Position numbers and translations under genes: made by a program | The notes under the pieces: generated by a model | Told to the model about the DNA's origin: nothing | What the model saw: the letters and a program-made list of their open reading frames with translations, nothing else | Database searches by the model: none | In this document: one piece after another, positions 12,653 through 51,642 of the stretch | How the letters are laid out: every line of letters starts with the position of its first letter | Position numbering within the stretch: position 1 is the stretch's first letter | Assembly: GCF_001267535.1 (NCBI RefSeq) | Contig: NZ_JRXE01000010.1 | Coordinates: 51,123-115,122 of the forward strand | DNA length: 64,000 bases | Reading direction: 5' to 3' | Source: Winslowiella iniecta | Lineage (GTDB): Bacteria; Pseudomonadota; Gammaproteobacteria; Enterobacterales; Enterobacteriaceae

Positions 12653-13783
12653 CTATGGACAGCCGTGTCTTTCAGCAGTCAACTCCAGAGAGTCTAACTT
12701 AAGGTCAGAATATACGACTTCCCGGAAGTATTCGAATGAATCAAAACTCATCAGTGACAATCTGATGCAGCGCACGAAGGGTGAAGATTGATCAAATGTT
12801 CTCACGTAGATATTATTTTGTTTTAATATCGTAACCAGTCTTTCCTTTTCCGATATTGATGGAAATTCGATCAGTAAAAAATTCCCTTTTCCATTATAAA
12901 TTTTGAGCTGGTGGTTATAGACAGTTGATAACAGATCCAGGGTTTTCTCTCGTATGCTATTAACTTCAGTGACGTAGTTAAGCATATACCCTACATCTTT
13001 TAAGGCTGCGATAGCGGATACTTGTGCGAACATCGAAACGCTTTTCGTGTTGCGGACGAGTGATAACGACTCATTTAAGTCCGGGTGGCATATGCTATAA
13101 CCGAATCGAATTGATGCCAGTCCAAATGCTTTAGAAAGTGTGCGGCAAACAATCAGGTTATCGTAGTGATTAACATGTTCTGAAATGGTAAGTTCTGGAC
13201 AGAATTCTACGTATGCCTCATCAACCACAAATAAAGTATCAGGACTTTCTGAAATGAGCTGCAGTAAGTGCTGAGATGGAATAAATTCCCCGGTTGGATT
13301 ATTTGGGTTGCATATATAAGCTAATTTAGAGTTGCTTAGCGATGGGGCTTTCCCACTAATTCCGAACATATCTTTAAAGTCGATTTTCTTGATTTTTGCC
13401 CCAGACACTTCACTGATAAGTCTGAAGTTGTCATAAGTTGGCCCAAAAATCGAGACGGTGTCGCCTTTCTCAACAAAAGCTCGAATAATACATTCATGCA
13501 AAGCATCCGAACCGGAAAAGTAGTTAAGTGTGTCTGGCGAACACTGAGTGTAATCTGCTAATAGTTGTATCAGTTCTTCATTGCGAACATTCGGATAGTA
13601 ACGTAAACGATCCGACTGAATAAATTCCATTAATGCTTTTTGAACCATTGGCGAAGGTTCTCGCGAAGATTCATTCCAGTCTAATTTTAAGCTTGCAACC
13701 TCATTGGGGGTAGACCATATTTCTTGGCTGGCAGGCAGATATGGTTTGATGCAGTTTAATTGTTGCAAGGTAAACTTGGACAT
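12653..13783 (-). CDS. HisC/CobD-like PLP aminotransferase of phosphonate cluster
   Basis: A 376-residue fold-type I PLP enzyme resembling histidinol-phosphate aminotransferase. It shows YYPNVRNEEL, FSGSDALHE, GPTYDNF, NPNNPTG (159-165), the PLP-pyridine Asp in VVDEAYVEF (Asp188) and the Schiff-base Lys218 in RTLSKAFGLASIRFGY. HisC and its relative CobD (L-threonine-O-phosphate decarboxylase) handle phosphate esters of amino alcohols, so a phosphono-amino acid is a plausible substrate. It could transaminate or decarboxylate; sequence alone does not decide. It is the last gene of the leftward operon, 3 bp after the MFS gene. A second histidine-pathway role is unlikely in this context. Confidence 0.8.
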   Translation of the reverse strand: MSKFTLQQLNCIKPYLPASQEIWSTPNEVASLKLDWNESSREPSPMVQKALMEFIQSDRLRYYPNVRNEELIQLLADYTQCSPDTLNYFSGSDALHECIIRAFVEKGDTVSIFGPTYDNFRLISEVSGAKIKKIDFKDMFGISGKAPSLSNSKLAYICNPNNPTGEFIPSQHLLQLISESPDTLFVVDEAYVEFCPELTISEHVNHYDNLIVCRTLSKAFGLASIRFGYSICHPDLNESLSLVRNTKSVSMFAQVSAIAALKDVGYMLNYVTEVNSIREKTLDLLSTVYNHQLKIYNGKGNFLLIEFPSISEKERLVTILKQNNIYVRTFDQSSPFVRCIRLSLMSFDSFEYFREVVYSDLKLDSLELTAERHGCP

Positions 13784-13786
13784 AAG

Positions 13787-15001
13787 TTAGTTCTCCAGAC
13801 TGCCTTTATTAGTCAACGAATTATTTAAAATAGATTGAACAGCAACGACCGAGATACACGCTAAAGATAAAATGAGAAAAAATTCCTTTCCGAAAGACTC
13901 TAATAGAATGCCGCCAACTAAGGGGCCGGTATATATTCCCAGGACGACCATAGAAGCGACACCCAGAAAAGTACCTCTGTTCTCCTTTGACGAGAGTTTA
14001 TCCAGCTGAATACTGACATTTGGCATCAAGATGGCTTCAGATATACTATACAAAATAGCAATCAACACCCAGCTTACTGTCGAATCTGAATTAACAGCGT
14101 ACATCATTGCGTAAGCCAGGCAAAATAACGATGCACCAAGGGATATTTTAAACGATGTCGAGAACCGTTCAAGATAGTGAACTGCGAAGGGTTGTACCGC
14201 AATCACGACAATCGCATTTGTTGAAAATAAAATAGTAATGAGCTTAATAGCGGTTTCTGAATTTGTCAGGTGTAAATATTGCGGTAGTGTCGTTTCAATT
14301 TGTGAAAATAACAAAAAGGCTAAAAATCCCGCAAGCAGGGAAATAAGAAATGGTGTGTTAGTTATCACTAATTTCAATCTTTGATTGATTCCGATGTTAA
14401 TTTTTCTACATAAACTAATATGAACCTCTGTTTTGAGGTGTTTCACTGCATATATCGCAAATGGGATATAGGATATCGCGGTGACGTAGAAGGTGAATTT
14501 TTGAGCATTTAATCCAGCCATTAAGCCAATCAGGGGTCCAGAAACGGCAGCAATATTGACAAAAAAGTACCTGGCCTGGAGGGAAAACTCCCGTAAATCT
14601 GTCCCTTCTAACAGATCGCTACCAATCGCTTTGCTGGGTGCATCAATAAATGAATAGGAAATACCAACAAGAACTAACCCTAGCGAAAAAGTTACAGGGT
14701 CAGAAGCAAAACCTAATGTTGCATAGGCAGAAACAGCAATCAAACAGCCGATCACAATAACTATTCGGCGCTCATAAATATCCGATAACACCCCGCCATA
14801 TACACCTACCATGAATGAGATGTAGGCGCTCGCAGTCATCATTAACCCAACTTCAACGGGTGACAGATTGTACTCGGATGAAAGAATTATAGCGATAAAT
14901 GGCCAAACCATAAAATACGTCATTCGTGTTAAGAGTATAAAAAATAAAATACCCTTAACGGCATTTGGCAGTGATCTAAACTTATCAATTATAATAAGCA
15001 T
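13787..15001 (-). CDS. MFS transporter, likely phosphonate product exporter
   Basis: A 404-residue inner-membrane protein with about 12 hydrophobic segments. It carries the MFS loop 2-3 motif in GVYGGVLSDIYERRIV (about residues 67-82), as found in drug and metabolite efflux carriers of the DHA1 group. It lies between the ATP-grasp ligase gene (2 bp away) and the HisC-like gene (3 bp away), so the three are surely one operon. Peptide antibiotic clusters commonly pair a ligase with such an exporter, so export and self-resistance for the product is the likely role. The substrate is inferred from context only. Confidence 0.8.
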   Translation of the reverse strand: MLIIIDKFRSLPNAVKGILFFILLTRMTYFMVWPFIAIILSSEYNLSPVEVGLMMTASAYISFMVGVYGGVLSDIYERRIVIVIGCLIAVSAYATLGFASDPVTFSLGLVLVGISYSFIDAPSKAIGSDLLEGTDLREFSLQARYFFVNIAAVSGPLIGLMAGLNAQKFTFYVTAISYIPFAIYAVKHLKTEVHISLCRKINIGINQRLKLVITNTPFLISLLAGFLAFLLFSQIETTLPQYLHLTNSETAIKLITILFSTNAIVVIAVQPFAVHYLERFSTSFKISLGASLFCLAYAMMYAVNSDSTVSWVLIAILYSISEAILMPNVSIQLDKLSSKENRGTFLGVASMVVLGIYTGPLVGGILLESFGKEFFLILSLACISVVAVQSILNNSLTNKGSLEN

Positions 15002-15003
15002 TA

Positions 15004-16179
15004 TTAAGCCGTTTGCTCATAATTCTTGTTATTAATAATGGATTTTATTTTGTCCATATCATCTTTAATATGGCCACTGGTTAAACTACGGCTTAACAAG
15101 CAGAAACCTGGACGATCGGTGGAACATTTGATTTCATGACTATATTCGGTATGCTCATAATGGAAACGAAGCACCCGAGCAAACTCTTCAAGCCGGGGTA
15201 TTAAAGCAGACGGGTCTGTTTCACTATACAGTGAGATATAGGCTAATGAGTGCTCAGGCTGATAATCTTCCAATCTCATCTCTTTGTCGAAGTAACTATG
15301 AATCGTTTTTTCGATTAAATTCACGCCCGTGGACTTGAAAACCATTTCCCATATGAAATCACCGCCGCCCCGGTTATTGACTTCAATTAACCTGACCTTA
15401 TCGCCATCCACCTTGAATTCGATATGCATTGGTCCATGGGTATGATCTAAAACATTGAGCAGCTGCACTGTGGCTTTGTCGACCCGTTCTTTTGTACGCT
15501 CGTCAACAGGAGCGGGAAAAATATGGGAATCTTCAATAACGGTGTTTGGTATAAGGAATTTTTCTGTAATGCCAAGAACATAGTGGCAGCCATTGAGAGA
15601 AAGTGTCTCTACACTGAATTCCTTACCTCCACAATAGACCTCTAAAAGTGCACGATCAAAGTGATCAAGCAGTTTCTGTGTCGCTGTTTTTAACTGCTCC
15701 CTATTGTTGCATACCGTCACATTAGCACTCCCGGCACCCATGGTCTCTTTTACAACTACCGGGTAGCCAAATCTGGTGGCAAATTCTTCTGCCTGAGCAA
15801 CAGAGTGACAATCTAAATATGGGACGTGAAAATCGGTTAACTCCAGGTGTTTTCTTAAATTCGGTTTGATACGACACAGCATTGAAATTCTTTTGTCCAT
15901 GCCCGGTATTTCAAGTTTTTCCGCAACTTCAACGGTGGGCAGGATAGTAAATTCTGCAAATCCAAACATGGCTGAGACAGGATGTTCCTGCATTGCCAGC
16001 AAGGTGGCGCGCTCAATTTCTTCGACGGTGAAATCCAAAACAGGAATCACCCGTGCGCATTTGTTAGTGACACTCGGTCCTATTTTGTGCTGTAACTGAA
16101 TTGAAACGACATTAAATCCTTCTAAATCTATATCCTCAAATATTTCATCCTGTCCACCAACAATAATTATGTTTTTCAT
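15004..16179 (-). CDS. ATP-grasp ligase (amino acid/peptide ligase type)
   Basis: A 391-residue ATP-grasp enzyme. The N-terminal Rossmann-like part begins IIIVGGQDEIFEDI. The central ATP-binding part includes GYPVVVKETMGAGSANV (about 155-171). The Mg-binding C-terminal part has MHIEFKVDGDKVRLIEVNNRGGGDFI-type residues, where the Glu and Asn pair binds metal. This layout matches L-amino acid ligases and carnosine-synthase-like enzymes, which make peptide bonds through acyl phosphates. It is first in the leftward operon and faces pepM across a 280-bp shared promoter region. It probably joins an amino acid to a phosphonate amine or phosphono-amino acid. The identity of either substrate is unknown. 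Confidence 0.85.
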   Translation of the reverse strand: MKNIIIVGGQDEIFEDIDLEGFNVVSIQLQHKIGPSVTNKCARVIPVLDFTVEEIERATLLAMQEHPVSAMFGFAEFTILPTVEVAEKLEIPGMDKRISMLCRIKPNLRKHLELTDFHVPYLDCHSVAQAEEFATRFGYPVVVKETMGAGSANVTVCNNREQLKTATQKLLDHFDRALLEVYCGGKEFSVETLSLNGCHYVLGITEKFLIPNTVIEDSHIFPAPVDERTKERVDKATVQLLNVLDHTHGPMHIEFKVDGDKVRLIEVNNRGGGDFIWEMVFKSTGVNLIEKTIHSYFDKEMRLEDYQPEHSLAYISLYSETDPSALIPRLEEFARVLRFHYEHTEYSHEIKCSTDRPGFCLLSRSLTSGHIKDDMDKIKSIINNKNYEQTA

Positions 16180-16459
16180 AATAAGGCTCTCAGGTTCTTC
16201 ATTATTTTCACCGTATAGTCATCTTTTACAACTGTCAACCGTGTAACAAACAGATAACATAAAACTTCAATGAAAACATAGGCAAAACCGCCAAACTGCG
16301 AGCAATGTTAAAAAAATAAAATAAATTGTTGCGATCATGTTACTTTTGTGTTTTATTTTTACCCTCTCGAATAATAACAATAAAACGGTCCTGGTATTTC
16401 TATTAATGCCACTGGATTTTGCTGTCTATCAGAAATCTCAGCATTCAAGGAGTAGTCAC
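16180..16459. promoter_or_regulatory. Divergent control region of the phosphonate cluster
   Basis: A+T-rich 280-bp region between the leftward ligase operon and pepM. For the leftward operon a TTGACA-like -35 lies at 16238-16233 (minus strand), with a TATACG-like -10 about 15 bp further at 16217-16212. The short spacing makes this tentative. No regulator gene is found within the cluster, so control is likely by a distant or global factor. An in-frame ATG at 16408 and the open frame from 16337 lack an RBS and are treated as leader. Confidence 0.45.
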
Positions 16460-17398
16460 TTGAAAGAATTAACTGAAGTGCATGGTAAAGAGTATCTGCA
16501 AGGACTGACATCGATTACAAACTGTGAAAGACGAAAAAGTTTGAAGCAAGTTTTACAATCAAAACAGTGTATTCGAATAATCGAATCACACAGCCCTATA
16601 TCGGCAATGATTGTTGAGAAAACACGCGTGGCCGTTGATGATGATTATCTGGAATTCGATGGATTCTGGTCAAGTTCGCTCACTGATTCTTTGCTTCAGG
16701 CAAAGCCCGATATCGAGAAGTTAGATGCAAACTTTAGGTTAAAGAACATCCATAATATTTTCGATGTGACAACCAAACCTATGATCTATGACGCCGATAC
16801 AGGCGGCAAGATTGAACATCTTATTTATGATGTTAAAGCGCTGGAGCGTGCCGGCGTGTCAATGATCGTTATTGAAGATAAAACTGGCCTTAAGAAGAAC
16901 TCATTACTGGGTAATGACGTTGAACAAACTCAGGATGATATCGAATCCTTCTGTCACAAAATTAAAATGGCCAAAAAAAGTCAAATCACCCAAGAGTTTA
17001 TGATCGCCGCCAGAATAGAAAGCCTCATATTAGACAAAGGCCTGGAAGATGCTCTGATGCGTGCCGATGCCTATGTAGAGGCTGGCGCGGACGCTGTGCT
17101 GATTCACAGTCGTAAGAGTAGCGGCAACGAAATAAGAGAGTTTGCTTTAAGGTTTCGAGCCATGCATGCGAATGTTCCTTTAGTCTGCGTTCCGACGAGC
17201 TATTCCCACCTTCACTACCAGGAACTGAAGGAAATGGGATTTAATATCATTATTTACGCCAATCACATGATGCGTTCAGCGATTAGCTCAATGGAAAATG
17301 TGGCTAAAACTATCTTAAGCGAAGGTTGTTCCAGCCCTATTGAACAAGACTGTATCTCGGTGAAAGAGGCCTTAGCCTTTATTCCTGGAACCATTTAA
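16460..17398 (+). CDS. pepM: Phosphoenolpyruvate phosphomutase
   Basis: A 312-residue PEP mutase, the committing step of phosphonate biosynthesis: PEP is rearranged to phosphonopyruvate, making the C-P bond. The mutase signature EDK-x5-NS is present at residues 139-148 (EDKTGLKKNS), which separates it from isocitrate lyase and oxaloacetase relatives. Other family blocks are LDG-like FDGFWSSSLTDS (66-77), the metal-binding YDADTGG (110-116), IAARIES and GADAVLIHS. I place the start at TTG 16460, because AAGGAG lies at 16447-16452 with 7-nt spacing and the family N-terminus follows; the ATG at 16408 has no RBS. It heads the rightward operon, 13 bp before the next gene. Confidence 0.93.
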   Translation: MKELTEVHGKEYLQGLTSITNCERRKSLKQVLQSKQCIRIIESHSPISAMIVEKTRVAVDDDYLEFDGFWSSSLTDSLLQAKPDIEKLDANFRLKNIHNIFDVTTKPMIYDADTGGKIEHLIYDVKALERAGVSMIVIEDKTGLKKNSLLGNDVEQTQDDIESFCHKIKMAKKSQITQEFMIAARIESLILDKGLEDALMRADAYVEAGADAVLIHSRKSSGNEIREFALRFRAMHANVPLVCVPTSYSHLHYQELKEMGFNIIIYANHMMRSAISSMENVAKTILSEGCSSPIEQDCISVKEALAFIPGTI

Positions 17399-17411
17399 GA
17401 GTGAAATAATA

Positions 17412-18608
17412 ATGTTAAACAAAAAAATTACAGATTTAGCAGAATATGCATCAAAGTCAATTTCAAAAAAAGCGAAGGAAATCGGTGATGTTTGCGCCAT
17501 GAGTTTTGGTGAACCCTATTTCGGACCGCCAGAATCTGCTAAGTCTGAAATCGAAAAAAACCTTAACTATGATTCATACATTGAAACCCTAAAGCGTTAT
17601 GAAGACCCTCGTGGATCACTGGAACTTCGTCAAGAAATTAGTCGTTGGTACTCGGATAATTACGGCATAACAGTTTGCCCTGACACTGAGGTTTTAGTGA
17701 CTCATGGCGGAGTTGAGGCCATAACCTTGAGTGTTTTATGTACGACTTCGGCAAATGATAAGGTTCTGGTGAGTGATCCATCATATATGCTGTATTCGCG
17801 CAACATCACCGTGTTGGAACGCGTTGTTCAGCCTTTAAGTCGTGTACCAGGTTCCCATGAATACCAGGGTGCTTTAAAAAATCATCCAGACCAATACTCT
17901 GATGTGAACTTAATGATTGTTAACTCCCCTGAGAACCCGAGTGGTTATGTACTGAGTGAGCAGGACTGGAAGGCGGTGGCTGAGTTTGCGGAAAAGAATC
18001 AAACGTGGGTACTTCATGACGAAGTCTATGATTCGATGGCATTCGAACGTAAGCACCTGCCTGCGATTGCAAACAGCAAGCTCAAAGATAAGACCATCTT
18101 AATCAATAGCTTCTCAAAGAAATTTGGTTTGCCGGGTCTGCGAATTGGCTGGATGGTTGCCCCGGCAGAGTTGATTGATCAGGCGGCTAAACTCCATGAT
18201 TACATGTATCTTGGTGTGGGTATCCTAAACGAAAAAACGGCTATCGCGGTGCTTAAATCTGACAGCCGCCAATGGTTACAAGACAACTGCCAGGAGATAA
18301 GTGACCGCGCTAATATTGCCCTGACGACATTAACAGAAGAATCAGGATTTGACTGGCGTCGTTCTCCATTAGGTGCAATGTTCTTATTCCCAGAAATATC
18401 AAAGCTTTACAAACGAATCCCGCAAAAATATAAAGAGCAGTTTGAATCAAAAGGCGAAGCTGTAGCAAATTACTTACTACTGGAGAAAGGGGTCGCAACC
18501 GTACCAGGAAATGTCTATGGTGAAGATTCGGCTAACTATATTCGACTGGTTCTATGCACACCAAGGGATGAATTTGACCTCGCAATGCAAAGGTTGGCGA
18601 CATGTTAA
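17412..18608 (+). CDS. Class I/II aminotransferase of phosphonate cluster
   Basis: A 398-residue aspartate-aminotransferase-like PLP enzyme. It has SFGEPYFGPP at the N-terminus, YEDPRGSLELRQEI, THGGVEAI, SDPSY, NSPENPSG (171-178), the Asp203 of LHDEVYD and the Lys236 of SFSKKFGLPGLRIGW. It follows pepM immediately and may convert phosphonopyruvate to phosphonoalanine, which would drain the unstable PEP mutase product irreversibly. Ppd further along would compete for the same intermediate, so another keto substrate is possible. It overlaps the next gene by 7 bp, which indicates translational coupling. Confidence 0.8.
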   Translation: MLNKKITDLAEYASKSISKKAKEIGDVCAMSFGEPYFGPPESAKSEIEKNLNYDSYIETLKRYEDPRGSLELRQEISRWYSDNYGITVCPDTEVLVTHGGVEAITLSVLCTTSANDKVLVSDPSYMLYSRNITVLERVVQPLSRVPGSHEYQGALKNHPDQYSDVNLMIVNSPENPSGYVLSEQDWKAVAEFAEKNQTWVLHDEVYDSMAFERKHLPAIANSKLKDKTILINSFSKKFGLPGLRIGWMVAPAELIDQAAKLHDYMYLGVGILNEKTAIAVLKSDSRQWLQDNCQEISDRANIALTTLTEESGFDWRRSPLGAMFLFPEISKLYKRIPQKYKEQFESKGEAVANYLLLEKGVATVPGNVYGEDSANYIRLVLCTPRDEFDLAMQRLATC

Positions 18609-19453
18609 CATCTGAATCCCAGGCAATCGCACATAAGAGCATTCAGGAACGCGGATTTTGTATCTTACCTCAGGCGATGAACCATAAAACCTGGCAAATA
18701 TTGTCAGATAGCTACGCATTGCTTATGAAAGAATCACTCGAGATTCTGTCTCGAGTATCTCAATCAGATCAATCTTTATCTGAATATTATAAAGCGGGTG
18801 GCGAAAAGTTAATTGTTGTGCCTGAAAACGGTGACAGCGACAAGATTTGTCGGTTTGAATACATTTCGAATCATTCCGAAGAGATAAGAGATTCCGTGAT
18901 CCCTTACTTTCAGGAGATCCTGTCAGAAATAACAGGTAGCAGATTTAAACTGTTTAAAGACAAGTGTAATGTTAAGAGACCGGGTGGAGGTGCATTTGGC
19001 TGCCATCAGGATTACCCAGCCTATAGCGACTTTATCCCTGACTATCACTTAACTATTGCAATTTTTTTGGACCAACCTTCAATAAGTAATGGTTGTCTGG
19101 AAATGGCAAAAAACTGGAAGTCAATCAGTGATAACCTGGGTGCATTAGACAGTGACTATCTGGGAAAATCGATTTTTAAGAGAAATCCCGATTCAGGTGA
19201 CGTCCTGCCCGAAATTGCTGATAAATTTGAATGGGAAAGAATACTTCCCGCTGTCAATGACATCGTTCTGTTTGATTCGTTTGTGCCGCACCGCTCGAGT
19301 GTGAATGCAAGTGATGGATCCCGCAGAGCCTATTTTTTCACTTTCGCACCAGAAAGTTCAGGAGATCACTACGCGCATTATTATCGTGTCAAAAGGAACG
19401 CCTTTGACAATCCAAAGTTCCACCTGTCAACACCAACGGATCGAGGTGTATAA
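18602..19453 (+). CDS. PhyH-family Fe(II)/2-oxoglutarate dioxygenase (PhnY*-like)
   Basis: A 283-residue phytanoyl-CoA dioxygenase family protein. The iron triad is visible: His135 and Asp137 in GCHQDYPAY, and His230 in FVPHRSSVN. An Arg of the SRRAYFFTF segment (about 241) would hold 2-oxoglutarate. The FKDKCNVKRPGGG block before the HxD resembles PhnY*, which hydroxylates 2-aminoethylphosphonate at C1, and other phosphonate-cluster PhyH enzymes. It likely hydroxylates or desaturates a phosphonate intermediate. It is translationally coupled to the upstream aminotransferase and sits 5 bp before the PhnW-like gene, fitting a 2-AEP-related substrate. Confidence 0.82.
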   Translation: MLTSESQAIAHKSIQERGFCILPQAMNHKTWQILSDSYALLMKESLEILSRVSQSDQSLSEYYKAGGEKLIVVPENGDSDKICRFEYISNHSEEIRDSVIPYFQEILSEITGSRFKLFKDKCNVKRPGGGAFGCHQDYPAYSDFIPDYHLTIAIFLDQPSISNGCLEMAKNWKSISDNLGALDSDYLGKSIFKRNPDSGDVLPEIADKFEWERILPAVNDIVLFDSFVPHRSSVNASDGSRRAYFFTFAPESSGDHYAHYYRVKRNAFDNPKFHLSTPTDRGV

Positions 19454-19458
19454 GAAAG

Positions 19459-20550
19459 ATGCCACTTGAAACTGTTGATAATCAATTGTTGTTCACACCT
19501 GGCCCATTAAATACCAGTGCCACAGTGAAAGCGGCAGCAATGAGAGATATAGGCTCAAGAACGTTCGCTATGCGTGAAGTCACGAATGAGATCATTGACT
19601 TATTACATTCTATTTCGGAACTTTCCTCAGACTATTCCACGGTGTTAATGCAGGGAAGTGGAACATTTTCTGTCGAGGCCATGCTTTCGTCTTTAATTAG
19701 TGAAAATGATCATGTTTTAATCCTTATCTCCGGTGATTATTCTACACGGATGGCAGATATATGTAGCATTTATGGCATTCCACACCATCTGGAAGAGTTT
19801 GATGAGAGCGAAGGCATTTGCCCGGAGAAACTAAAAGAATTTCTTGGTAACACGTCCGAACCGTTTTCTCACTTACTCTTTGTTCATTATGAAACCGCAT
19901 TAGGTGTGGTTAATCCTTATGATGCGATCATGGAAGTTGCCTTTGAATTCAATCTCAAGGTACTGGTCGATTGCGTCAGCTCTTTTGGGCTACTGCCGGT
20001 GTGTACCACCTTTCCCAATTTAGTGGCAATTGCTTCCTCTGCCAATAAGTGCATTCAAGGCTTAACAGGCGTTTCTTTTGTGTTAGTAAAACATAATGAG
20101 CTTATGATTGAACGCAAAAAGAGAACGCTTTCGTTCGACCTTAAAGCTCAGTCAAAAGCTTTTATGGCAAATGGTGAATGGAGGTTTTCACCACCTGTAC
20201 AAATTCTTTTAGGCCTGAGACAAGCCTTGCAAGAATATGTTCAGGAGGGAGGGCGTGAATATCGCTATCAGAGATACCAGAATTTACGTGAGTACCTGGA
20301 GCTGAAGTTAAAGAAGCATGATATTTTTCCTGTAATAAAAGCCAGGCTCAGGGCTCCGATAATAAATACTTATTCACTGCCGCCGGGTGTAGACTATATT
20401 AGTCTTTCAACCGCCTTAGCAAAACGCAATATTGTGGTATACGCGTCTAAGCAGAAAGGCTGTTTTCGCATTGGTACGGCAGGTGATATCAATCAATCAG
20501 ATGTCGATACATTATTGCATGAAATTGAATGTGTGATTAAGGGATGTTGA
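19459..20550 (+). CDS. phnW: 2-aminoethylphosphonate:pyruvate transaminase-like (PhnW)
   Basis: A 363-residue class V aminotransferase with close PhnW landmarks: LLFTPGPLNTSATVK (10-24), MRDIGSR, VLMQGSGTFSVEA (62-74), HYETALGVVNP (143-153), Asp171 in VDCVSSFG, and the Schiff-base Lys197 in SSANKCIQG. PhnW interconverts phosphonoacetaldehyde plus alanine and 2-AEP plus pyruvate. In a cluster with PepM and Ppd it would run in the biosynthetic direction, making 2-AEP. Its stop overlaps the start of a second class V aminotransferase. Confidence 0.85.
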   Translation: MPLETVDNQLLFTPGPLNTSATVKAAAMRDIGSRTFAMREVTNEIIDLLHSISELSSDYSTVLMQGSGTFSVEAMLSSLISENDHVLILISGDYSTRMADICSIYGIPHHLEEFDESEGICPEKLKEFLGNTSEPFSHLLFVHYETALGVVNPYDAIMEVAFEFNLKVLVDCVSSFGLLPVCTTFPNLVAIASSANKCIQGLTGVSFVLVKHNELMIERKKRTLSFDLKAQSKAFMANGEWRFSPPVQILLGLRQALQEYVQEGGREYRYQRYQNLREYLELKLKKHDIFPVIKARLRAPIINTYSLPPGVDYISLSTALAKRNIVVYASKQKGCFRIGTAGDINQSDVDTLLHEIECVIKGC

Positions 20551-21650: not shown

Positions 21651-21715
21651 GCGATTGAAATTTCGAGTCCGAGTTAACTCTCAGGAACGACCTGATTGTG
21701 AAAACCCGGCGGGTC

Positions 21716-21738
21716 ATCTGGTTTGTCACAAACCAGAT
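21716..21738. other. Strong hairpin / inverted repeat inside the cluster
   Basis: Perfect 10-bp inverted repeat ATCTGGTTTG-tca-CAAACCAGAT in the 163-bp gap between the second class V aminotransferase and the LpxO-like gene. No T-run follows, so it is not a standard terminator. It may be an operator for an internal promoter or an mRNA processing site separating two blocks of the operon. Confidence 0.5.
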
Positions 21739-21813
21739 TGAGAATTCCCTATTTTGTTCAAGCATGATGCGTTGAAAAATCCTTCTTCATTTTAAATCAA
21801 GGACAACTAATTA

Positions 21814-22500: not shown

Positions 22501-22518
22501 ATGACTGAGGAAAGAACT

Positions 22519-23277
22519 TTGAAAACATTATTGCTCGCCGCAGGCGTTGGCAGCCGGTTAGGAACCTTGACGAATAACGTACACAAGTCATTACTGAAAA
22601 TTAATGATGAGCATACAATACTGGACTATCAGTTACGCACCCTGGAGCGCGCAGGGCTAAATGATATTAATATTGTTGTCGGGCATTGTGCTGAGTCAGT
22701 AGCAGATAAATGTCAACAATACGCTGACTCGCATAATATCCGGTTAATCCACAATGACTCCTATCGGTCTAAAAACATCGACTGGAGCGTTTACCTTGGC
22801 CTGAACGCTATTGAAGATGATATCATCTATATCGAAGGCGATATGGTCTTACATTCTGAAATACTCTCGAAGCTGAAAACCTCAACGGCAGATATCTGCT
22901 TGATTATCGATAAAAGGCCCAAGAGTCAATGTGTTGATACTGTTGTCCGCATTGACCCGGAAACAAAAGCATTATCAATCGATGTTAAGGAACATGGCTT
23001 TCATACTGATTCCTCAATTGAAAATTCAATTGGTGAATTTGTCTGTGCGATAAAAATAAGCAATACGGCGCGTAAGTTACTTTTAAAGAGACTGCAAGAT
23101 TTCAGCTTTGATGGAATTATTAAGTTTTATAACGCGATAAATGATATTTTACCTGAAGTGACTTTCAGTTATCACGAAACCTTTGATTTTGAGTGGGTAG
23201 AGGTGGATAATTTACAGGACCTTGAAAGAGCTAAGCACCTGTCCACGCAGACTAACTTTGGTTTAAGCAAAGGCTGA
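22519..23277 (+). CDS. Sugar-1-P-type nucleotidyltransferase (putative phosphonate cytidylyltransferase)
   Basis: A 252-residue nucleotidyltransferase with the N-terminal NTP-binding motif LAAGVGSRLG (residues 5-14), the Lys of HKSLL, IEGDMVLH at the metal site and FEWVEVDN near the end. The family includes CTP:phosphocholine and CTP:2-AEP cytidylyltransferases (PntC, in phosphonate tailoring). I choose TTG 22519: GAGGAAA at 22507-22513 lies 5 nt before it and MKTLLLAAG is the normal family start. The ATG 22501 has no RBS. Adjacent to a CDP-alcohol phosphatidyltransferase, it most likely makes CMP-2-aminoethylphosphonate or a related CMP-phosphonate. CTP specificity is inferred. Confidence 0.8.
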   Translation: MKTLLLAAGVGSRLGTLTNNVHKSLLKINDEHTILDYQLRTLERAGLNDINIVVGHCAESVADKCQQYADSHNIRLIHNDSYRSKNIDWSVYLGLNAIEDDIIYIEGDMVLHSEILSKLKTSTADICLIIDKRPKSQCVDTVVRIDPETKALSIDVKEHGFHTDSSIENSIGEFVCAIKISNTARKLLLKRLQDFSFDGIIKFYNAINDILPEVTFSYHETFDFEWVEVDNLQDLERAKHLSTQTNFGLSKG

Positions 23278-23282
23278 AATGA

Positions 23283-24026
23283 ATGAGCGTTGAATATAAT
23301 CAGGTCAAAGCGCCCCTGTTGACTCCGAACCAAATTACTTTGTTACGTTTCGTACTAACGATAATACTCTTCGTGATTTGGCAAAGTTTTTCATTATCTT
23401 TCCTCCAGAAAACAATAATATGTGTCATCTTTGCCGCGATCTTTATACTGGATAACATTGATGGCATTGTTGCCAGAAAGTATTCTTTGATGTCTCTGTC
23501 AGGGCACTACTTTGATGCGGCCGTCGATGTAATAACTTATTTTCTCCTTGCTTTTATTTTACAAAGTGAAGGGATTCTCCCTGGCTTTTTTATCGCCTTA
23601 ATGTTGATTAGGGAAGTTTTCGTTGTATATATTAAAGCTTACCTGGCAGAGACTGGAATGCATGTGTCGACATCATCCATTGCTGTTGTAAAGTGTGAAT
23701 TGATAGGCATTCCTATGGCATTTCTTTACATCATATTTACGGGTGAAAGTGCAAGTCAGTATTTATTTATCTCTCTGATATTTATATACTTTTTGACATT
23801 AAAGCTGTGGTATGAAATAACGAATAAACAGCATATGATTTTGATTCTGACAGCATTGTTACCCGTGCTGATCTACCCAGCAGTAGATGAGTCTGTTTCT
23901 GTTGGCAACTGGTATCTTTACAGCTATATGCTAATAGCTATAGTGTTTTCTTATTTTTCAGCATTTGGCTATTTTAGACTGTTCCTCTTAAAAAATAACA
24001 CTCATCAGGATAATTATGAACAATAA
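23283..24026 (+). CDS. CDP-alcohol phosphatidyltransferase (putative phosphonolipid synthase)
   Basis: A 247-residue integral membrane protein with about six or seven hydrophobic segments. The complete CDP-alcohol phosphotransferase motif is present: Asp57-x2-Asp60-Gly61-x2-Ala64-Arg65-x8-Gly74-x3-Asp78-x3-Asp82. These enzymes displace CMP from a CDP-alcohol, or here perhaps a CMP-phosphonate, onto an alcohol acceptor such as diacylglycerol. With the preceding nucleotidyltransferase it matches the PntC-PntP logic proposed for phosphonolipids. It starts 5 bp after the nucleotidyltransferase and overlaps the SDR gene by 11 bp. The lipid acceptor is unknown. Confidence 0.85.
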   Translation: MSVEYNQVKAPLLTPNQITLLRFVLTIILFVIWQSFSLSFLQKTIICVIFAAIFILDNIDGIVARKYSLMSLSGHYFDAAVDVITYFLLAFILQSEGILPGFFIALMLIREVFVVYIKAYLAETGMHVSTSSIAVVKCELIGIPMAFLYIIFTGESASQYLFISLIFIYFLTLKLWYEITNKQHMILILTALLPVLIYPAVDESVSVGNWYLYSYMLIAIVFSYFSAFGYFRLFLLKNNTHQDNYEQ

Positions 24027-24765
24027 AGTATTATTAGTGACAGGCTCTGGTCGGGGTATTGGAGCGGCTACTGCGTTACTGGCGGCAAAGCAAGGTTATT
24101 CGGTATGTATAAATTATTTAAACGATGAGAAATCTGCATTTAGCGTCCGTGATGAGATTTTGAAACAGGGTGGAAAATGTATCGCCTTGCAGGCGGATGT
24201 ATCAAATGAGCAACAGGTTAAACAGGTCTTTGATGATATCGATACCCAGCTGGGCGTCATTACCCACCTGGTCAATAATGTTGGGATCTTAAAGCAGAAA
24301 ATGCCCATGATTGAGATGGATGGAGAACGATTCCAACAGGTACTGTTGACGAATGTCATGAGCCATTTTTATTGCTCACGTGAAGCGATAAAACGTATGT
24401 CGCTTTCCAGAGGAGGCGCTGGCGGTTCAATTGTTAATGTTTCATCCGGCGCATCGAGAAGCGGCTCTCCTTTTGAATATATTGATTATGCAGCCTCGAA
24501 AGGCGCTGTTGACACCTTTACCACAGGACTGTCTAAAGAGGTCGCTGCTGACGGTATCCGGGTCAACTGCGTCCGTCCGGGAGGCATTTACACCGATATC
24601 CATGCTGATGGAGGCGAAGCTTTAAGAGTTGACCGCATTGCAAAGAACTTCCCGATGAAAAGAGGGGGGAGACCTGAAGAGGTTGCAAATGCAATTCTTT
24701 GGCTACTCAGTGACGAAGCGTCATTCGTTACTGGAAGTTTTACAGACTTGTGCGGTGGTGTGTAA
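24016..24765 (+). CDS. SDR family oxidoreductase of phosphonate cluster
   Basis: A 249-residue classical short-chain dehydrogenase: cofactor motif TGSGRGIG (9-16), DVSNEQQV, NNVG, catalytic Ser in VSSGASRSG and Tyr-x3-Lys in DYAASKGAVD, and the C-terminal VTGSFTDLCGG. The Gly-Arg-Gly loop and sequence resemble YgfF-type SDRs. It could reduce phosphonoacetaldehyde or oxidise a hydroxyphosphonate made by one of the oxygenases. It has an AGGA RBS inside the end of the transferase gene and is followed after 1 bp by the IMPase-like gene. The substrate is not visible from sequence. Confidence 0.85.
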   Translation: MNNKVLLVTGSGRGIGAATALLAAKQGYSVCINYLNDEKSAFSVRDEILKQGGKCIALQADVSNEQQVKQVFDDIDTQLGVITHLVNNVGILKQKMPMIEMDGERFQQVLLTNVMSHFYCSREAIKRMSLSRGGAGGSIVNVSSGASRSGSPFEYIDYAASKGAVDTFTTGLSKEVAADGIRVNCVRPGGIYTDIHADGGEALRVDRIAKNFPMKRGGRPEEVANAILWLLSDEASFVTGSFTDLCGGV

Positions 24766-24766
24766 A

Positions 24767-25564
24767 TTGGAAACTCACCTGGCGACCATCCTGGATGAAA
24801 TATCCAGAAGATATCGTTTTTGCCTGGATGTGATTGAACAATTGGCTGGCTATCAAAAGCAGCAAGCGGTTTATCCGATGGAAATAGTCTTAAAAGCGGA
24901 TTCAAGCCCGGTATCGATAATCGATATTAATACTGAACGCCAATTTCGCACGCTATTGCAGCGCGATTTTGCGACCGATAGCGTTCAAGGCGAAGAGTTA
25001 GGTGCTACTGAATTATCGGATTTTAACTGGGTTATCGATCCCATTGATGGCACCAGGAAATTTATCAGGGGCATTCCCACCTGGGGAATTTCAATTGCTT
25101 TAGAGTACCAGTCTAAAGTCGTCGTTGCTGCAATAGCCGTCCCATCCACCGGTGATGTCTGGTCCGCTATCTATCAGGGAGGGGCATTTAAAAATGGAGA
25201 AAGGATAAAAGTAAGCACAATATCAGACATCAAAGAGTCTTATATTACTACGTCAGCCAGAAAATATTTTCTGGAGATAGACCAACAGATGTGTTACGAC
25301 AATATCCATGCTCATTCATTACATGATCCTGGATTTTTGGATGTTTATAGTTTCGCTATGTTATGTGATGGAAGAATTGATGGGATCGTCTCCTGTCAGG
25401 ATAATTGGTGGGATATCGCTGCCGCAACACTTATCCTGACGGAGGCGGGGGGCAGCTATAGCTTTTCTTCACATCATGATCGACCAAATGACGGCGTTAA
25501 CTATTTTACTAATGGCAAGATACATCGAAAAGTCGCTTCAATTATTAAGGATATCACAAAATGA
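24767..25564 (+). CDS. Inositol monophosphatase-fold phosphatase
   Basis: A 265-residue Mg-dependent phosphatase of the FIG/IMPase superfamily (IMPase, HisN, CysQ). The metal motifs are the Glu pair in QGEELGA, WVIDPIDGTRKF and DNWWDIAAATL. The frame is open further upstream inside the SDR gene. I choose TTG 24767, which is preceded by GGTGG at 24754-24758; GTG 24758 or 24755 are alternatives. It overlaps the formyltransferase-like gene by 4 bp. A role could be removal of a protecting phosphate, or release of a nucleotide or phosphate from a CMP-phosphonate intermediate, analogous in logic to the CMP-release step of FR-900098 synthesis. This is inference. Confidence 0.75.
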   Translation: METHLATILDEISRRYRFCLDVIEQLAGYQKQQAVYPMEIVLKADSSPVSIIDINTERQFRTLLQRDFATDSVQGEELGATELSDFNWVIDPIDGTRKFIRGIPTWGISIALEYQSKVVVAAIAVPSTGDVWSAIYQGGAFKNGERIKVSTISDIKESYITTSARKYFLEIDQQMCYDNIHAHSLHDPGFLDVYSFAMLCDGRIDGIVSCQDNWWDIAAATLILTEAGGSYSFSSHHDRPNDGVNYFTNGKIHRKVASIIKDITK

Positions 25565-26136
25565 AAACTTGCGTTTTGATAACCACAGCCAGAGAAGAGC
25601 AGGCCAATGCTATTTATTCAATTACCAACGACTTCTTTGATGTGAAATTATTTTCAACACATGGTTGGGATAATAAAGAGGTTACGCAAGAGTTAGAAGA
25701 TACCCTTTTATCAGGAGAAGTTGATTATTTATTCAGTTTTTGTTGTCCACTTATTGTTCCTCAATATCTTCTCGACAGTGTTCGTTATCTGTGTGTGAAC
25801 TTCCATCCTTCCCCACCAGAATATCCTGGTGTTAAAGGTGCTTACCGGGCATGCTGGGATAAAAAAAATGAGTTTGGCGTGACTGCACATGTAATGGAAG
25901 AAAAAGTGGATACCGGTAAAATCCTAAAAGTTAACCGTTTCCCGATCTTAAATAATAATCTTCCTGACGCGCTAACTCTCGATTCTTTTAAATATAGTAT
26001 TGATTTATATCAAGAAGTTATTCGTGATATCGCGCAAAACAAATCATTTAACAGCAATGAACAGTGGTCAAATTTTACCATGACGCGAAAAAAATTCGAG
26101 GCATTGCATCAAGAACGTAAAAGCAATGAAGTATAA
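25561..26136 (+). CDS. Formyltransferase-fold enzyme
   Basis: A 191-residue protein with the 10-formyltetrahydrofolate-dependent formyltransferase fold. The catalytic triad of this family is visible as Asn80 and His82 in VNFHPSPPEYPG and Asp117 in KVDTGKIL. It lacks the C-terminal OB domain of methionyl-tRNA formyltransferase and the length of PurN, so it is a stand-alone small-molecule N-formyltransferase type. It would add formyl to an amine, perhaps the amine of an aminophosphonate or of an amino acid unit. N-formyl groups occur in the phosphonate fosmidomycin, but the hydroxylamine-forming oxygenase of that pathway is not evident here. It overlaps the previous gene by ATGA. Confidence 0.75.
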   Translation: MKTCVLITTAREEQANAIYSITNDFFDVKLFSTHGWDNKEVTQELEDTLLSGEVDYLFSFCCPLIVPQYLLDSVRYLCVNFHPSPPEYPGVKGAYRACWDKKNEFGVTAHVMEEKVDTGKILKVNRFPILNNNLPDALTLDSFKYSIDLYQEVIRDIAQNKSFNSNEQWSNFTMTRKKFEALHQERKSNEV

Positions 26137-26151
26137 CCAAACGAGTGAATC

Positions 26152-27282
26152 ATGATATCCCCAATCGAATTTTTAAAAGAACTCAAAGAAAATAATATTG
26201 ATACCTATTATGGTGTTCCCGATTCATTGTTAAAAAGCTTAGGGGATGCAATAAATGATTCAGTTCTGGTCAGTAACCACAGTATTACTCCTAATGAAGG
26301 TATTGCCGTCTCCAGGGCAATTGGTTATTTTTCTGCCACAAGGCAACTTCCGGTTGTCTACATGCAAAATTCGGGTCTGGGGAACGCGGTAAACCCTCTG
26401 CTTTCTTTAGCAGACCCTCAGGTCTATGGCGTGCCAATGCTAATTATTGTCGGGTGGCGAGGAGAAATTGTTGGTCAGGACCAAATTGCTGATGAGCCAC
26501 AACATCGAAAACAGGGTCGTGTCACCATCGATCTTATTCATTCTATGGGATATAACTATTTCGTTGTGGATAAAGATAGTTGTTATAAAACAATTGTTTG
26601 TGAAAGTGTTGCTCTCGCCAGGCAGAAGCAGGAGCCTGTTTTTTTAGTAGTGCGCAAAGATACATTTTCTGCTCACAACTCAAGTTCGCCTAAAAATCGA
26701 TTCAAAATGAATCGGGAAGAAGCTATAAAAAATGTATTAACCTTGTTACCTGATGACTGCATTTCTGTGGCAACCACAGGGAAAACAGGGAGAGAAATAT
26801 TTGAATTGAGACAATCCCTGAATATGCCTCATCACACTGATTTTTTATGTGTCGGCGGTATGGGCCACGCGTCGAGCATTGCAGCTGAAATTGCTCGTTA
26901 CAAACCTGAAAGATCTGTTGTGTGTTTTGACGGCGATGGCGCAGCGCTGATGCATTTAGCTTCAATGCAGCATGCCGCTTCCCAGAAAAATTTTTTACAT
27001 ATTATCTTAAATAATTGTGCTCACGAGTCTGTTGGCGGGCAAAGTACCTCATTCGATGAACTCGATGCCGCTTCGCTGGCCAGAAGTTTTGGTTATGCTA
27101 AGTTTGCCTATATCACTGAAAAAGACGAATTATGCAGAGAGACAACAAATTTCTTCCACACTCAACAGTCTACATTGTTCATAATCGGCTGCAAAATTGG
27201 CAGCAGGGATGATCTGGGCAGACCGACCACACCTGCCAGAGAGCAATATGCAGCGTTCACCAATTTTGTTAATAGTAAATAG
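26152..27282 (+). CDS. ppd: Phosphonopyruvate decarboxylase
   Basis: A 376-residue thiamine-diphosphate enzyme that decarboxylates phosphonopyruvate to phosphonoacetaldehyde and so drives the unfavourable PEP mutase reaction. Family features are the opening ISPIEFLKELKENNIDTYYGVPDS, NEGIAVSRAIGY with the Glu that activates ThDP, MQNSGLGNAVNPL, VGWRGE, QGRVTIDLIHSMG, and the ThDP/Mg motif GDGAALMH (about 261-268) ending at NN. It is placed eleven genes after pepM, separated from the formyltransferase gene by 15 bp. Together with PepM and the PhnW-like protein it completes a standard route to 2-AEP. Confidence 0.92.
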   Translation: MISPIEFLKELKENNIDTYYGVPDSLLKSLGDAINDSVLVSNHSITPNEGIAVSRAIGYFSATRQLPVVYMQNSGLGNAVNPLLSLADPQVYGVPMLIIVGWRGEIVGQDQIADEPQHRKQGRVTIDLIHSMGYNYFVVDKDSCYKTIVCESVALARQKQEPVFLVVRKDTFSAHNSSSPKNRFKMNREEAIKNVLTLLPDDCISVATTGKTGREIFELRQSLNMPHHTDFLCVGGMGHASSIAAEIARYKPERSVVCFDGDGAALMHLASMQHAASQKNFLHIILNNCAHESVGGQSTSFDELDAASLARSFGYAKFAYITEKDELCRETTNFFHTQQSTLFIIGCKIGSRDDLGRPTTPAREQYAAFTNFVNSK

Positions 27283-27380
27283 CACTCGGGATTAATCTTT
27301 CTCGTGAGTTTTTCATTGGTGCTGACTTCGATGTCGCTGAATGGATAAGAATGTAACTTAGGGTTTGCCCGGAGGTAAAA

Positions 27381-29312
27381 TTGAAAGATGTAATAATCGT
27401 GGTATCCAGAAATGACTATACCTCTTTACTCAAAGATGGGGAGTTGATTGGCTCCCTGAAAGGGAAAAATATCATTTATATTTTTTCTGTAAAATGCTCT
27501 GTTATACCCCATAACACACATTTCGAAGAACTCCACCTTATCGATATTGTAAATTCAGAGGACTACCTCACGGCGTTATTAAAATCTATTAGTTGCCGTT
27601 ACAATATTACAGACATTGTTTCTACTGGCGAAGAAGATTTGTCACCGGCGGCCTATGCCAGGCAAGCTCTTCACCTCAATGGGTTGCAGGTTGAACAGTC
27701 AAAGTTATATCGAAATAAAATTTTAATGAAACAACGATTAACTTCTACGACAATAAGGCTACCGCAATACTCGCCCGCATCAGAGATAAACACGTTAACT
27801 GATATGCTGGCGACCTTTGGAAAAATCATTATTAAGCCGAAGGATGGTTACTCTTCCAAAGGTATCACCATCGTATCAACCGCTCCCGAGCTGAATCAAT
27901 TTCTGTCAGAACAGAGTGATTTTCTTGGTCAATTTATCGCGGAAGAGTTTATTGACTCAGAGATGTATCACCTGGATGCAGTGGTATCCGGCGGAGAAAT
28001 TCTGTTTTCTACTCTTGGCAGATATCATCAACCCTTAGTGAACTTCAGCAGTAGTCAGTGGTTAGTCTCATCTGTCACCAATCAAGCTTCGGCATTACAT
28101 GAGAAAGCTAAACAAGTATTACGTGAAGTTTTAAATCATTTTGAGACTGACAAAGGTGTTTTCCACTTTGAATTTTTTTCAGATGGTGACAATGTCATAT
28201 TTTGTGAAATTGCAATGCGGCCAGCAGGAGGAGGTATTTCTGAGGCGATATATGAAACTTGGGGGATTCATCTTCATGAGATTAATGTCCAGCTTCAATT
28301 AAATATTCCGGTTACTCTTCCAGTCGTGGAGGACAGACACTCCTCTATTATCTTAATGATGAGTCAGCAGCAAGGTGTTATAACTAACTTACTGAATGAG
28401 GACTTTCTTGAAGAGAACGCATATAAAGTCTTAAAGCGAAAATCCATAGGTGATAAAGTCTCACCTGCTCAGTTCAGTTCGGACAGTATTCTCAATGTGG
28501 TTGCTGTCAGTGATAATGCTCAGGATCTGGAAGATTCTGTCAGGAAAATCACCTCTAAGACTTATTACCAAATAGAAGCAGCAATCAAAGACGTTAATAT
28601 TGATAATGTGCCACAGAAAGAGTCGTTTACGATTGTTCGTGTGATACCACATGATAAATCCTCATTCACGCAGGGGTTAATTATCGATGGTGAACACATT
28701 ATTGAGTCCACCGGGTTATATAAAAAATCCAGAATCAACATTCTCGAAGCATCAAGTGGCAAGTTGGTAAGGTCTAAGGATTTGCCTGAAGATCTGTGGG
28801 GTGAAGGATTAACCAAGGTTGATGGAAAGTACTATGCGCTCACTTTTAAAGAACAAAAAGTGATGGTACTGGATCCCACCAATCTGAATACTCTGAATAC
28901 ATTCAGCTATGAGGGAGAGGGGTGGGGTTTAACGACCGATGGTAAAAACCTTGTAATGAGTGATGGTAGTGACGAAATCACCTTTCGCGATCCGGTTGAT
29001 TTTTCGGTTATAAAAACTATCCATGTCACTTTCAATGGCAAAAAAATAGCCAAGATTAATGAGCTTCAATGGATAAAGGGTTTGATATACGCCAATGTCT
29101 GGTATACGGATATTATCTTAGTGATCAACCCTGAAGACGGTAAGGTCGTTAAATGGATTGATATGGCGGGTATTCAGTTCAACCTCGATCATTTTGACAA
29201 GAATACCAATACGCTTAATGGTATCGCTTATGATGATGTTAACGATAAGCTTTATGTCACAGGCAAAAACTGGTCTAACATCTTTGAAGTAAAATTCACT
29301 ACAGATACCTGA
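27381..29312 (+). CDS. ATP-grasp ligase fused to glutaminyl cyclase
   Basis: A 643-residue two-domain protein. Residues 1 to about 405 form an ATP-grasp ligase, with KIIIKPKDGYSSKGI near 150 and the Mg-binding FFSDGDNVIFCEIAMRPAGGG near 265-285. Residues about 413-640 form a beta-propeller glutaminyl-peptide cyclotransferase of the plant/bacterial type: FTQGLI, ESTGLY, WGEGLT, GWGLTTDGK, MSDGS, INELQW, YANVWYTD, LNGIAYD and VTGKNW are all present. Such cyclases are normally exported single-domain proteins; here no signal peptide exists, so it should act in the cytoplasm. The start is TTG 27381 with GGAGG at 27371-27375. The obvious reading is addition of glutamine to a phosphonate amine followed by cyclisation to a pyroglutamyl cap. 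A terminator follows. Confidence 0.88.
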   Translation: MKDVIIVVSRNDYTSLLKDGELIGSLKGKNIIYIFSVKCSVIPHNTHFEELHLIDIVNSEDYLTALLKSISCRYNITDIVSTGEEDLSPAAYARQALHLNGLQVEQSKLYRNKILMKQRLTSTTIRLPQYSPASEINTLTDMLATFGKIIIKPKDGYSSKGITIVSTAPELNQFLSEQSDFLGQFIAEEFIDSEMYHLDAVVSGGEILFSTLGRYHQPLVNFSSSQWLVSSVTNQASALHEKAKQVLREVLNHFETDKGVFHFEFFSDGDNVIFCEIAMRPAGGGISEAIYETWGIHLHEINVQLQLNIPVTLPVVEDRHSSIILMMSQQQGVITNLLNEDFLEENAYKVLKRKSIGDKVSPAQFSSDSILNVVAVSDNAQDLEDSVRKITSKTYYQIEAAIKDVNIDNVPQKESFTIVRVIPHDKSSFTQGLIIDGEHIIESTGLYKKSRINILEASSGKLVRSKDLPEDLWGEGLTKVDGKYYALTFKEQKVMVLDPTNLNTLNTFSYEGEGWGLTTDGKNLVMSDGSDEITFRDPVDFSVIKTIHVTFNGKKIAKINELQWIKGLIYANVWYTDIILVINPEDGKVVKWIDMAGIQFNLDHFDKNTNTLNGIAYDDVNDKLYVTGKNWSNIFEVKFTTDT

Positions 29313-51474: not shown

Positions 51475-51642
51475 CATTAACTCCTTGTAAAAATCATGAG
51501 GTTTGATCTACTGAGTGAGTAAATCATAAAAATAGCCCTGGTATTGGCAATGCTAATATCCTCAGAGTGCTGATGCATTTTGCGGATAACTGCTGGCAGT
51601 GATTGATAATTAAAAGTTGGGAGGGTTTCTTCCCCCCACAGG

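Follow-up and report, generated by a model that had tools for sequence, protein, structure and literature searches.

We found that a stretch of 64,000 nucleotides from Winslowiella iniecta (contig NZ_JRXE01000010.1; hereafter the window, to which all coordinates refer) carries at positions 12653–29312 a phosphonate cluster, whose 16 genes are all open and are arranged as a pair of divergent operons. By its protein families this is a PepM-dependent cluster in which a phosphonopyruvate decarboxylase (Ppd) would pull phosphonopyruvate forward, and a product with a carbon–phosphorus (C–P) bond is predicted. Fifteen of the genes, from the HisC-like aminotransferase to Ppd, occur in identical order and orientation in Vibrio ouci. 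We put at about even chances the prediction that the cluster makes and exports a peptide-capped 2-aminoethylphosphonate (AEP) which is activated as a cytidine monophosphate (CMP) ester and then transferred to an alcohol; every step past phosphonoacetaldehyde, including the class of the product, we infer from sequence.

The 16 proteins were assigned to families using Pfam and NCBIfam profile models with curated cut-offs. The assignments agreed with the enzyme types which a first-pass annotation of the DNA had listed for the two operons, all of which are open reading frames (ORFs) (Table 1). PepM, with the motif EDKTGLKKNS (EDKxxxxxNS type) at residue 180, and Ppd both scored above their curated cut-offs, in support of the earlier assignment to phosphonate biosynthesis; because both exceed these cut-offs, phosphoenolpyruvate would be converted to phosphonopyruvate and then to phosphonoacetaldehyde. 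The PepM profile found one place in the W. iniecta genome, above the cut-off, whereas 6 of 14 control genomes gave matches, all of them below the cut-off. A search of the whole W. iniecta genome for PhnJ (C–P lyase) at E 1e−3 gave no match, with a match in the E. coli control, so the assembly appears to encode no C–P lyase able to degrade the cluster's own product.

The leftward operon (12653–16179) encodes the HisC-like aminotransferase, a major facilitator superfamily (MFS) protein and ATP-grasp ligase 1. The rightward operon encodes, in order, PepM, a class I/II pyridoxal phosphate (PLP) enzyme which we label AAT, a PhyH-type oxygenase, a PhnW-like aminotransferase, a second class V aminotransferase (19% identical to the adjoining PhnW-like protein), an Asp-hydroxylase-fold oxygenase, a nucleotidyltransferase, a cytidine diphosphate (CDP)-alcohol phosphotransferase, a short-chain dehydrogenase/reductase (SDR), an inositol monophosphatase (IMPase)-family protein, a formyltransferase, Ppd and an ATP-grasp/glutaminyl-cyclase fusion. 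The cluster has a G + C content of 40.7%, against 48.2% on the left side of the window and 51.5% on the right, and is thus more A + T-rich than its surroundings, as first described. Catalytic patterns were complete in both the window and V. ouci for 12 of the 14 proteins scanned (the scan covered all but the MFS protein and the fusion), and for the remaining two the AAT motif NPSG and the Ppd motif GDG-x23-NN are present in the sequences. The motif checks for the CDP-alcohol, PhyH and formyltransferase enzymes were based on the catalytic residues known for these enzymes. A terminator-like stem (29354–29378) lies directly past the last gene of the cluster. Scans for promoter-like sites (56 versus 43.7 in shuffled sequences, standard deviation (sd) 6.2) and terminator-like sites (17 versus 13.4, sd 3.9) were not used.

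The proteins encoded by the 15 V. ouci genes are 59–83% identical to those of W. iniecta, and the V. ouci gene for ATP-grasp ligase 2 comes next after Ppd on the same contig. Across the 15 pairs the proportion of silent differences (pS) ranged from 0.77 to 0.93 and that of amino acid-changing differences (pN) from 0.10 to 0.27, with no internal stops. Because order and orientation are kept while silent sites are near saturation, the cluster is a selected unit, and each of the 15 pairs is under strong purifying selection. In Pseudomonas sp. R4-39-08 we sought three of the genes, and each had an orthologue there: the fusion (70%; locus tag C4J88_3540), AAT (84%) and the CDP-alcohol transferase (72%; C4J88_3544), with a longest contig of 5,882,212 bases in each record. 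By these comparisons the cluster is common to Vibrio and at least partly to Pseudomonas, a point which the first-pass annotation missed.

The cluster is otherwise rare and patchy. A scan of a collection of species genomes with PepM, using patterns which reach close relatives only, gave two loci, in V. ouci and in a member of the Bacteroidales (53%), the latter without a match to any other cluster protein. PepM was found at E 1e−60 in 5 of 394 genomes of the order and 12 of 392 genomes of the family, W. iniecta included, and the others were 46–55% identical. We compared 14 genome PepM loci (11 from the family, 2 from elsewhere in the order and 1 from the Bacteroidales; the L003, L060 and L067 stretches are shorter than 20 kb). 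None had more than 3 of the 16 genes at E 1e−5: Ppd matched in 11 of the 14, a distant SDR in 2 and a distant ATP-grasp protein in 2. AAT at E 1e−80 matched only W. iniecta itself among 369 genomes of the class and at E 1e−90 only V. ouci among 227 genomes of its genus (at most 5 and 8 first-look candidates per genome, respectively, scored among the matches listed), while PepM at E 1e−40 had a single match among 61 genomes of one genus, in a genome already known. The CDP-alcohol transferase gave 34 weak matches in 59 relatives (best E 1.3e−7) and no orthologue-level match, and none of the 23 pattern matches of the AAT alignment in viral contigs was confirmed.

In plasmids, PepM matched 102 records, all at less than 60% identity, and we found neither DNA closely similar to the cluster nor a CDP-alcohol transferase match. 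Six plasmid loci were examined, five from the PepM records (L069–L073, compared with the 16 proteins at E 1e−3) and one from Azospirillum thermophilum (L017) found via AAT. Two of the six have a distant five-gene core, namely the Azospirillum locus and Rhizobium rhizogenes L071, the latter with PepM, PhnW, nucleoside triphosphate (NTP) transferase, Ppd and a 64-residue PhyH match at the stretch edge. Locus L072 had PepM and a 23% AAT match, and L069 PepM alone. A TonB-dependent siderophore receptor beside the cluster (31193–33307) is present at 75–80% identity in 10 of the 36 further genomes searched in the genus; in the 20-kb stretches around it in these 10 genomes the other flank genes of the window did not adjoin it, save a generic SDR match in 7, and because its neighbours differ no empty insertion site could be defined. 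The distribution fits horizontal acquisition, which we consider likely for the cluster, although neither an insertion site nor a mobile gene is among the evidence.

Past phosphonoacetaldehyde, the PhnW-like enzyme would likely form AEP, and AAT and PhyH would likely act as a pair in modifying an amino- or hydroxyphosphonate. This is supported by the Azospirillum plasmid, on which pepM (33%), ppd (37%), AAT (51%), PhyH (38%) and PhnW (41%) lie together; that locus differs from ours by an additional copy of AAT (43%), a GNAT gene and a gene of 279 residues with no Pfam family, and the CMP, ligase and cyclase genes of the cluster were all unmatched there. The nucleotidyltransferase would then convert the phosphonate to a CMP ester. 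Its best PDB matches are LicC and PntC, it keeps the W-x-E-x-DN motif, and its Glu112 aligns with Glu104 of Tde-PntC (Asp105 in LicC), an amine-facing position according to the available text of PMC6697681. It differs from the PntC pathway in being free-standing beside a CDP-alcohol transferase, rather than a LicD or glycosyltransferase.

In the CDP-alcohol phosphotransferase, which would move the phosphonate from the CMP ester to an alcohol, the motif D57..D60G61..A64R65(x8)G74...D78...D82 is complete and its residues are invariant in seven sequences. The IMPase gene lies two genes further on. In di-myo-inositol phosphate synthesis activation is followed by a CDP-alcohol-type transfer and then by dephosphorylation by an IMPase, and the three proteins of the cluster recall this route; by analogy, the IMPase may remove a phosphate after the transfer. 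The nucleotidyltransferase and the CDP-alcohol protein scored 46.6 and 19.5 bits against the bifunctional IPCT/DIPPS model NF041135 (cut-off 580). The formyltransferase, Asp-hydroxylase-fold oxygenase, SDR and other aminotransferases may tailor amino and hydroxyl groups.

Amino acids would be attached by the two ATP-grasp ligases, of which the first resembles an L-amino acid ligase: its sole PDB match at E 1e−8 is the L-amino acid ligase BL00235 (3vot). What the first-pass annotation called the fusion protein joins an ATP-grasp to a glutaminyl-cyclase domain, an identity which it had missed. Since this domain extends over almost the whole Glu_cyclase_2 model (positions 12–249 of 249 of PF05096) and matches four solved cyclases, 3nol among them, pyroglutamate capping is a natural guess for the fused form: in W. 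iniecta and Pseudomonas the cyclase domain would turn an N-terminal Gln into pyroglutamate. The Pseudomonas orthologue is likewise fused (643 residues, 70% over residues 1–400). ATP-grasp 2 of V. ouci is unfused (61% identical to residues 2–400 of the fusion), as are its relatives in V. fluvialis and V. vulnificus (401 residues, 61–62%). Export of the product would fall to the MFS protein. The earlier suggestion that peptide and CMP-phosphonate chemistry are joined here is reasonable, given the L-amino acid ligase-like ATP-grasp 1 and the LicC/PntC-like nucleotidyltransferase; the class of product which it named is a matter of prediction. In a more specific scheme, which we regard as tentative and rather unlikely in its full detail, lipid-headgroup logic would be used for a secreted molecule: CMP-(hydroxy-)AEP would be passed to a soluble alcohol phosphate, followed by IMPase dephosphorylation, N-formylation or hydroxylation, and a pyroglutamate cap added by the ligase-cyclase.

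In structure comparison the AAT fold was nearest to aspartate and prephenate aminotransferases. We rejected AAT as a GntC/VioD arginine cyclase, as it scored 222 bits against a GntC family cut-off of 415 and its nearest folds are aminotransferases; 8fft is absent among the 50 fold matches listed for AAT, which does not exclude likeness to it. At E 1e−60 the AAT family comprises 203 proteins, and one relative, of 693 amino acids, is an AAT–PhyH fusion, which also favours the two acting as a pair. Six of the 120 AAT relatives listed are named phosphonopyruvate decarboxylase by their source; their Pfam domain is that of an aminotransferase. The sole NCBIfam match of PhyH was methylphosphonate hydroxylase (84 bits, cut-off 500), and its predicted structure (mean predicted local distance difference test score 50.6) was not used. 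A Piscirickettsia salmonis plasmid (L018:3983-8315) carries an AAT relative (38%) with an adjoining gene annotated as a 2-oxoglutarate (2OG)-Fe(II) oxygenase, for which a Pfam scan gave no family, as well as an overlapping gene for a 287-residue protein of no assigned function and a peptide-MFS gene.

It should be noted that several observations weigh against a peptide-capped, CMP-activated AEP. The PhnW-like, AAT, HisC-like, IMPase, PhyH and nucleotidyltransferase proteins fall below their nearest NCBIfam cut-offs, and their substrates may therefore differ. Tyr210 of the nucleotidyltransferase aligns with Glu196 of Tde-PntC, which also lies near the AEP amine in the account available (PMC6697681). 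The AAT family may not need a phosphonate substrate, because in the 22-kb Piscirickettsia stretch the other 15 cluster proteins, PepM included, were all unmatched at E 1e−3. The pyroglutamate step appears to lie outside the conserved core, since a search of the V. ouci genome with the cyclase domain gave no match at E 1e−3. The comparison with Pseudomonas took in three genes of the cluster. A role in a membrane lipid would suit the CDP-alcohol and LpxO/OlsC-like proteins equally well, and the chemistry as a whole is predicted from sequence.

The strongest alternative, which we still consider unlikely, is a cell-surface phosphonate, in which AEP would be placed on a lipid or glycan as in the pgb and phosphonoglycan loci, with transfer to a lipid alcohol and hydroxylation of acyl chains by the LpxO/OlsC-like oxygenase, the role known for LpxO and OlsC. 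The cluster does hold a CDP-alcohol transferase and OlsC/LpxO-like matches, and bacterial phosphonate capacity mostly serves cell surfaces, as stated in the available text of PMC6697681. By gene types the closest described cluster is pgb of Pantoea ananatis, likened here by annotation and not by sequence. The part of its annotation available (PMC9933511) lists PepM, aepY (ppd), PhnW, a FabG-type SDR, an SpsI-type NTP transferase, a CDP-alcohol phosphatidyltransferase, an AspC-type aminotransferase and an MFS gene, and a resemblance of pgb to the phosphonoglycan locus of Glycomyces has been described. However, pgb also has asnB, asd, glyA, cpdA-like, UDP-diacylglucosamine diphosphatase and second NTP transferase genes; the 16 proteins include no member of the asnB, glyA or asd families by Pfam and NCBIfam, so that the full pgb set is absent, and the pgb list, as far as available, has no PhyH, Asp-hydroxylase-fold, HisC-like, IMPase, formyltransferase, ATP-grasp or cyclase genes.

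A Mycetohabitans endofungorum megaplasmid (L073:8570-15897) is annotated with pepM, ppd, AEP aminotransferase, cytidylyltransferase, CDP-alcohol transferase, 2OG-Fe oxygenase and a lysylphosphatidylglycerol-synthase-domain protein, the last of which also favours a surface role; the locus looks like a phosphonolipid locus. Our proteins matched its PepM, PhnW, Ppd and, inside the long pepM gene, NTP transferase, with a 47-residue Asp-hydroxylase match (E 6.7e−4), but its CDP-alcohol gene had no tblastn match to that of the cluster at E 1e−3. Furthermore, none of the 16 proteins has a glycosyltransferase or LicD-like Pfam match, and a soluble product is indicated by the MFS protein together with the pair of ATP-grasp ligases, of which one is L-amino acid ligase-like. 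The Mycetohabitans locus shows that genes for CMP and CDP-alcohol chemistry accompany pepM repeatedly, so what is novel here is the gene combination; the cluster's architecture, initially described as unrecognised, is so in combination and not wholly unprecedented in its parts, given pgb (by annotation) and this plasmid.

A phosphonoalanine peptide, which we consider distinctly improbable, would arise if AAT turned phosphonopyruvate into phosphonoalanine, to which the ATP-grasp ligases then added amino acids, with the CMP and AEP genes as a second branch. The aspartate/prephenate aminotransferase-like fold of AAT agrees with this, as does the phosphonoalamide cluster pnaABCD, which shares with ours PepM, an AAT-superfamily enzyme (there the phosphonopyruvate transaminase PnaA), two ATP-grasp ligases which complete the phosphonoalamides and a transporter gene, pnaT (PMC11867202, as far as available); the likeness to PnaA is drawn from description, not sequence. 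In phosphonoalamide synthesis, however, transamination pulls PepM and the available account describes no cytidylyl or CDP-alcohol step, whereas the Ppd of W. iniecta would compete for phosphonopyruvate; as pnaABCD suffice for phosphonoalamides, the greater part of the 16 genes would have no explanation (PMC11867202). That the cluster is of a type already known by a different name, such as Halophos, is very unlikely: Halophos is, in the partial account available, a PepM cluster of Pantoea species, and the 11 other PepM matches among the 392 family genomes (a set which P. allii may lie outside) are at most 55% identical, in loci with at most 3 cluster genes.

The cluster also differs from those of pantaphos (HiVir) and flavophos, which proceed via phosphonomethylmalate according to the available descriptions. 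Likeness to pantaphos lies in an MFS gene and, in plasmid locus L070 (pantaphos-type by annotation), a 49% PepM and a 28% ATP-grasp match, with generic SDR and aminotransferase matches outside the pantaphos-type operon. By Pfam, the phosphonomethylmalate synthase, dehydratase, flavin monooxygenase and methyltransferase families are absent from the 16 proteins, none of which matched the L070 synthase and dehydratase genes, so the reported lack of pantaphos-type synthase and dehydratase genes holds. PepM (51%) is also shared by a locus of B. stagnalis in which a lumazine-synthase gene is present. We found no paper describing the gene set in the open-access literature, a coverage which excludes subscription papers and MIBiG. 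The product is likely an undescribed compound, as first proposed, set apart by description from those of pgb and the phosphonoalamides, with Halophos outside the comparison.

Coordinates and the principal matches of the 16 genes are given in Table 1. The PepM start is uncertain, because in V. ouci the frame starts 41 residues further in, and the IMPase gene probably starts at 24767 rather than at the mechanical 24683.

Table 1 Genes of the phosphonate cluster, with window coordinates, strand and supporting matches (percentages are protein identities)
Gene product	Position	Strand	Evidence
HisC-like class I/II aminotransferase (PLP)	12653..13783	-	PF00155 137.5 bits; TIGR01141 hisC 247.8 < cut-off 276.6; 71% V. 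ouci
MFS transporter, likely exporter	13787..15001	-	PF07690 140.8 bits; 70.5% V. ouci
ATP-grasp ligase 1, L-amino acid ligase-like	15004..16179	-	PF13535; 3vot E 9.5e−19; 61% V. ouci
PepM, phosphoenolpyruvate mutase	16337..17398 (start uncertain)	+	TIGR02320 392.6 bits > cut-off 319.6; 82% V. ouci over 312 residues
AAT, class I/II PLP enzyme	17412..18608	+	highest V. ouci identity among 15 pairs
PhyH-type Fe(II)/2OG oxygenase	18602..19453	+	PF05721 46 bits; H135-x-D137 and H230 retained
PhnW-like 2-aminoethylphosphonate aminotransferase	19459..20550	+	TIGR03301 320 bits < 360.8; NF010006 284 < 296; SxNK lysine
Second class V aminotransferase, BhcA/PhnW-related	20544..21650	+	NF045640 181.5 bits, below cut-off
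Asp/Asn beta-hydroxylase-fold oxygenase, OlsC/LpxO-like	21814..22500	+	PF05118 122 bits; NF052565 OlsC 120 bits, below cut-off
Nucleotidyltransferase, predicted PntC-like cytidylyltransferase	22501..23277	+	PDB LicC 1jyk 2.9e−14, PntC 6pd1 1.4e−4
CDP-alcohol phosphotransferase-family protein	23283..24026	+	PF01066 57.5 bits
SDR oxidoreductase	24016..24765	+	PF13561 186 bits; NF004777 369.9 < cut-off 383
IMPase-family phosphatase, HisN-like	24767..25564 (predicted TTG start)	+	PF00459 126.5 bits; TIGR02067 HisN 166 < 275; DPIDGT motif
Formyltransferase-fold enzyme	25561..26136	+	PF00551 61 bits; N-x-HPS and H-x6-D pattern retained
Ppd, phosphonopyruvate decarboxylase	26152..27282	+	TIGR03297 371.7 bits > cut-off 312.5; 70% V. 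ouci
ATP-grasp ligase 2 fused to Glu_cyclase_2 domain	27381..29312	+	PF02222; PF05096 276.5 bits; 3nol 1.1e−49

Elsewhere in the window, a likely toxin–antitoxin pair lies beside the cluster (33632–35054), comprising a RES-domain gene (34320–35054; PF08808, 65.5 bits) and, upstream of it, an Xre/MbcA-type antitoxin-like gene (33632–34336; 20.9 bits, below the cut-off of 24.5). The region 50404–57925 holds a pair of small ORFs (357 and 356 residues), whose N-termini are alike by eye, and a 1637-residue protein; a Pfam scan of this protein and the first small ORF gave no match.

Phosphonates are often potent enzyme inhibitors, the C–P molecules include antibiotics and plant toxins, and to our knowledge few phosphonate structures are known from Gram-negative bacteria. 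Orphan phosphonate clusters are common, since nearly 7% of bacteria are predicted phosphonate makers (PMC11867202, in the text available), but the conservation of this hybrid and its ligase-cyclase fusion make the cluster noteworthy despite this. The cluster unites AEP synthesis, CMP-ester transfer and ATP-grasp peptide ligation, which belong to separate clusters in the systems described, as far as their descriptions are available. Its ATP-grasp/glutaminyl-cyclase fusion and AAT–PhyH pair are directly testable enzymes and, if the more specific scheme given above is true, both the phosphonate-ester peptide scaffold and the ligase-cyclase would be new. The cluster is present in W. iniecta and Vibrio, and at least partly in Pseudomonas, and its silent sites are near saturation, which shows long use.

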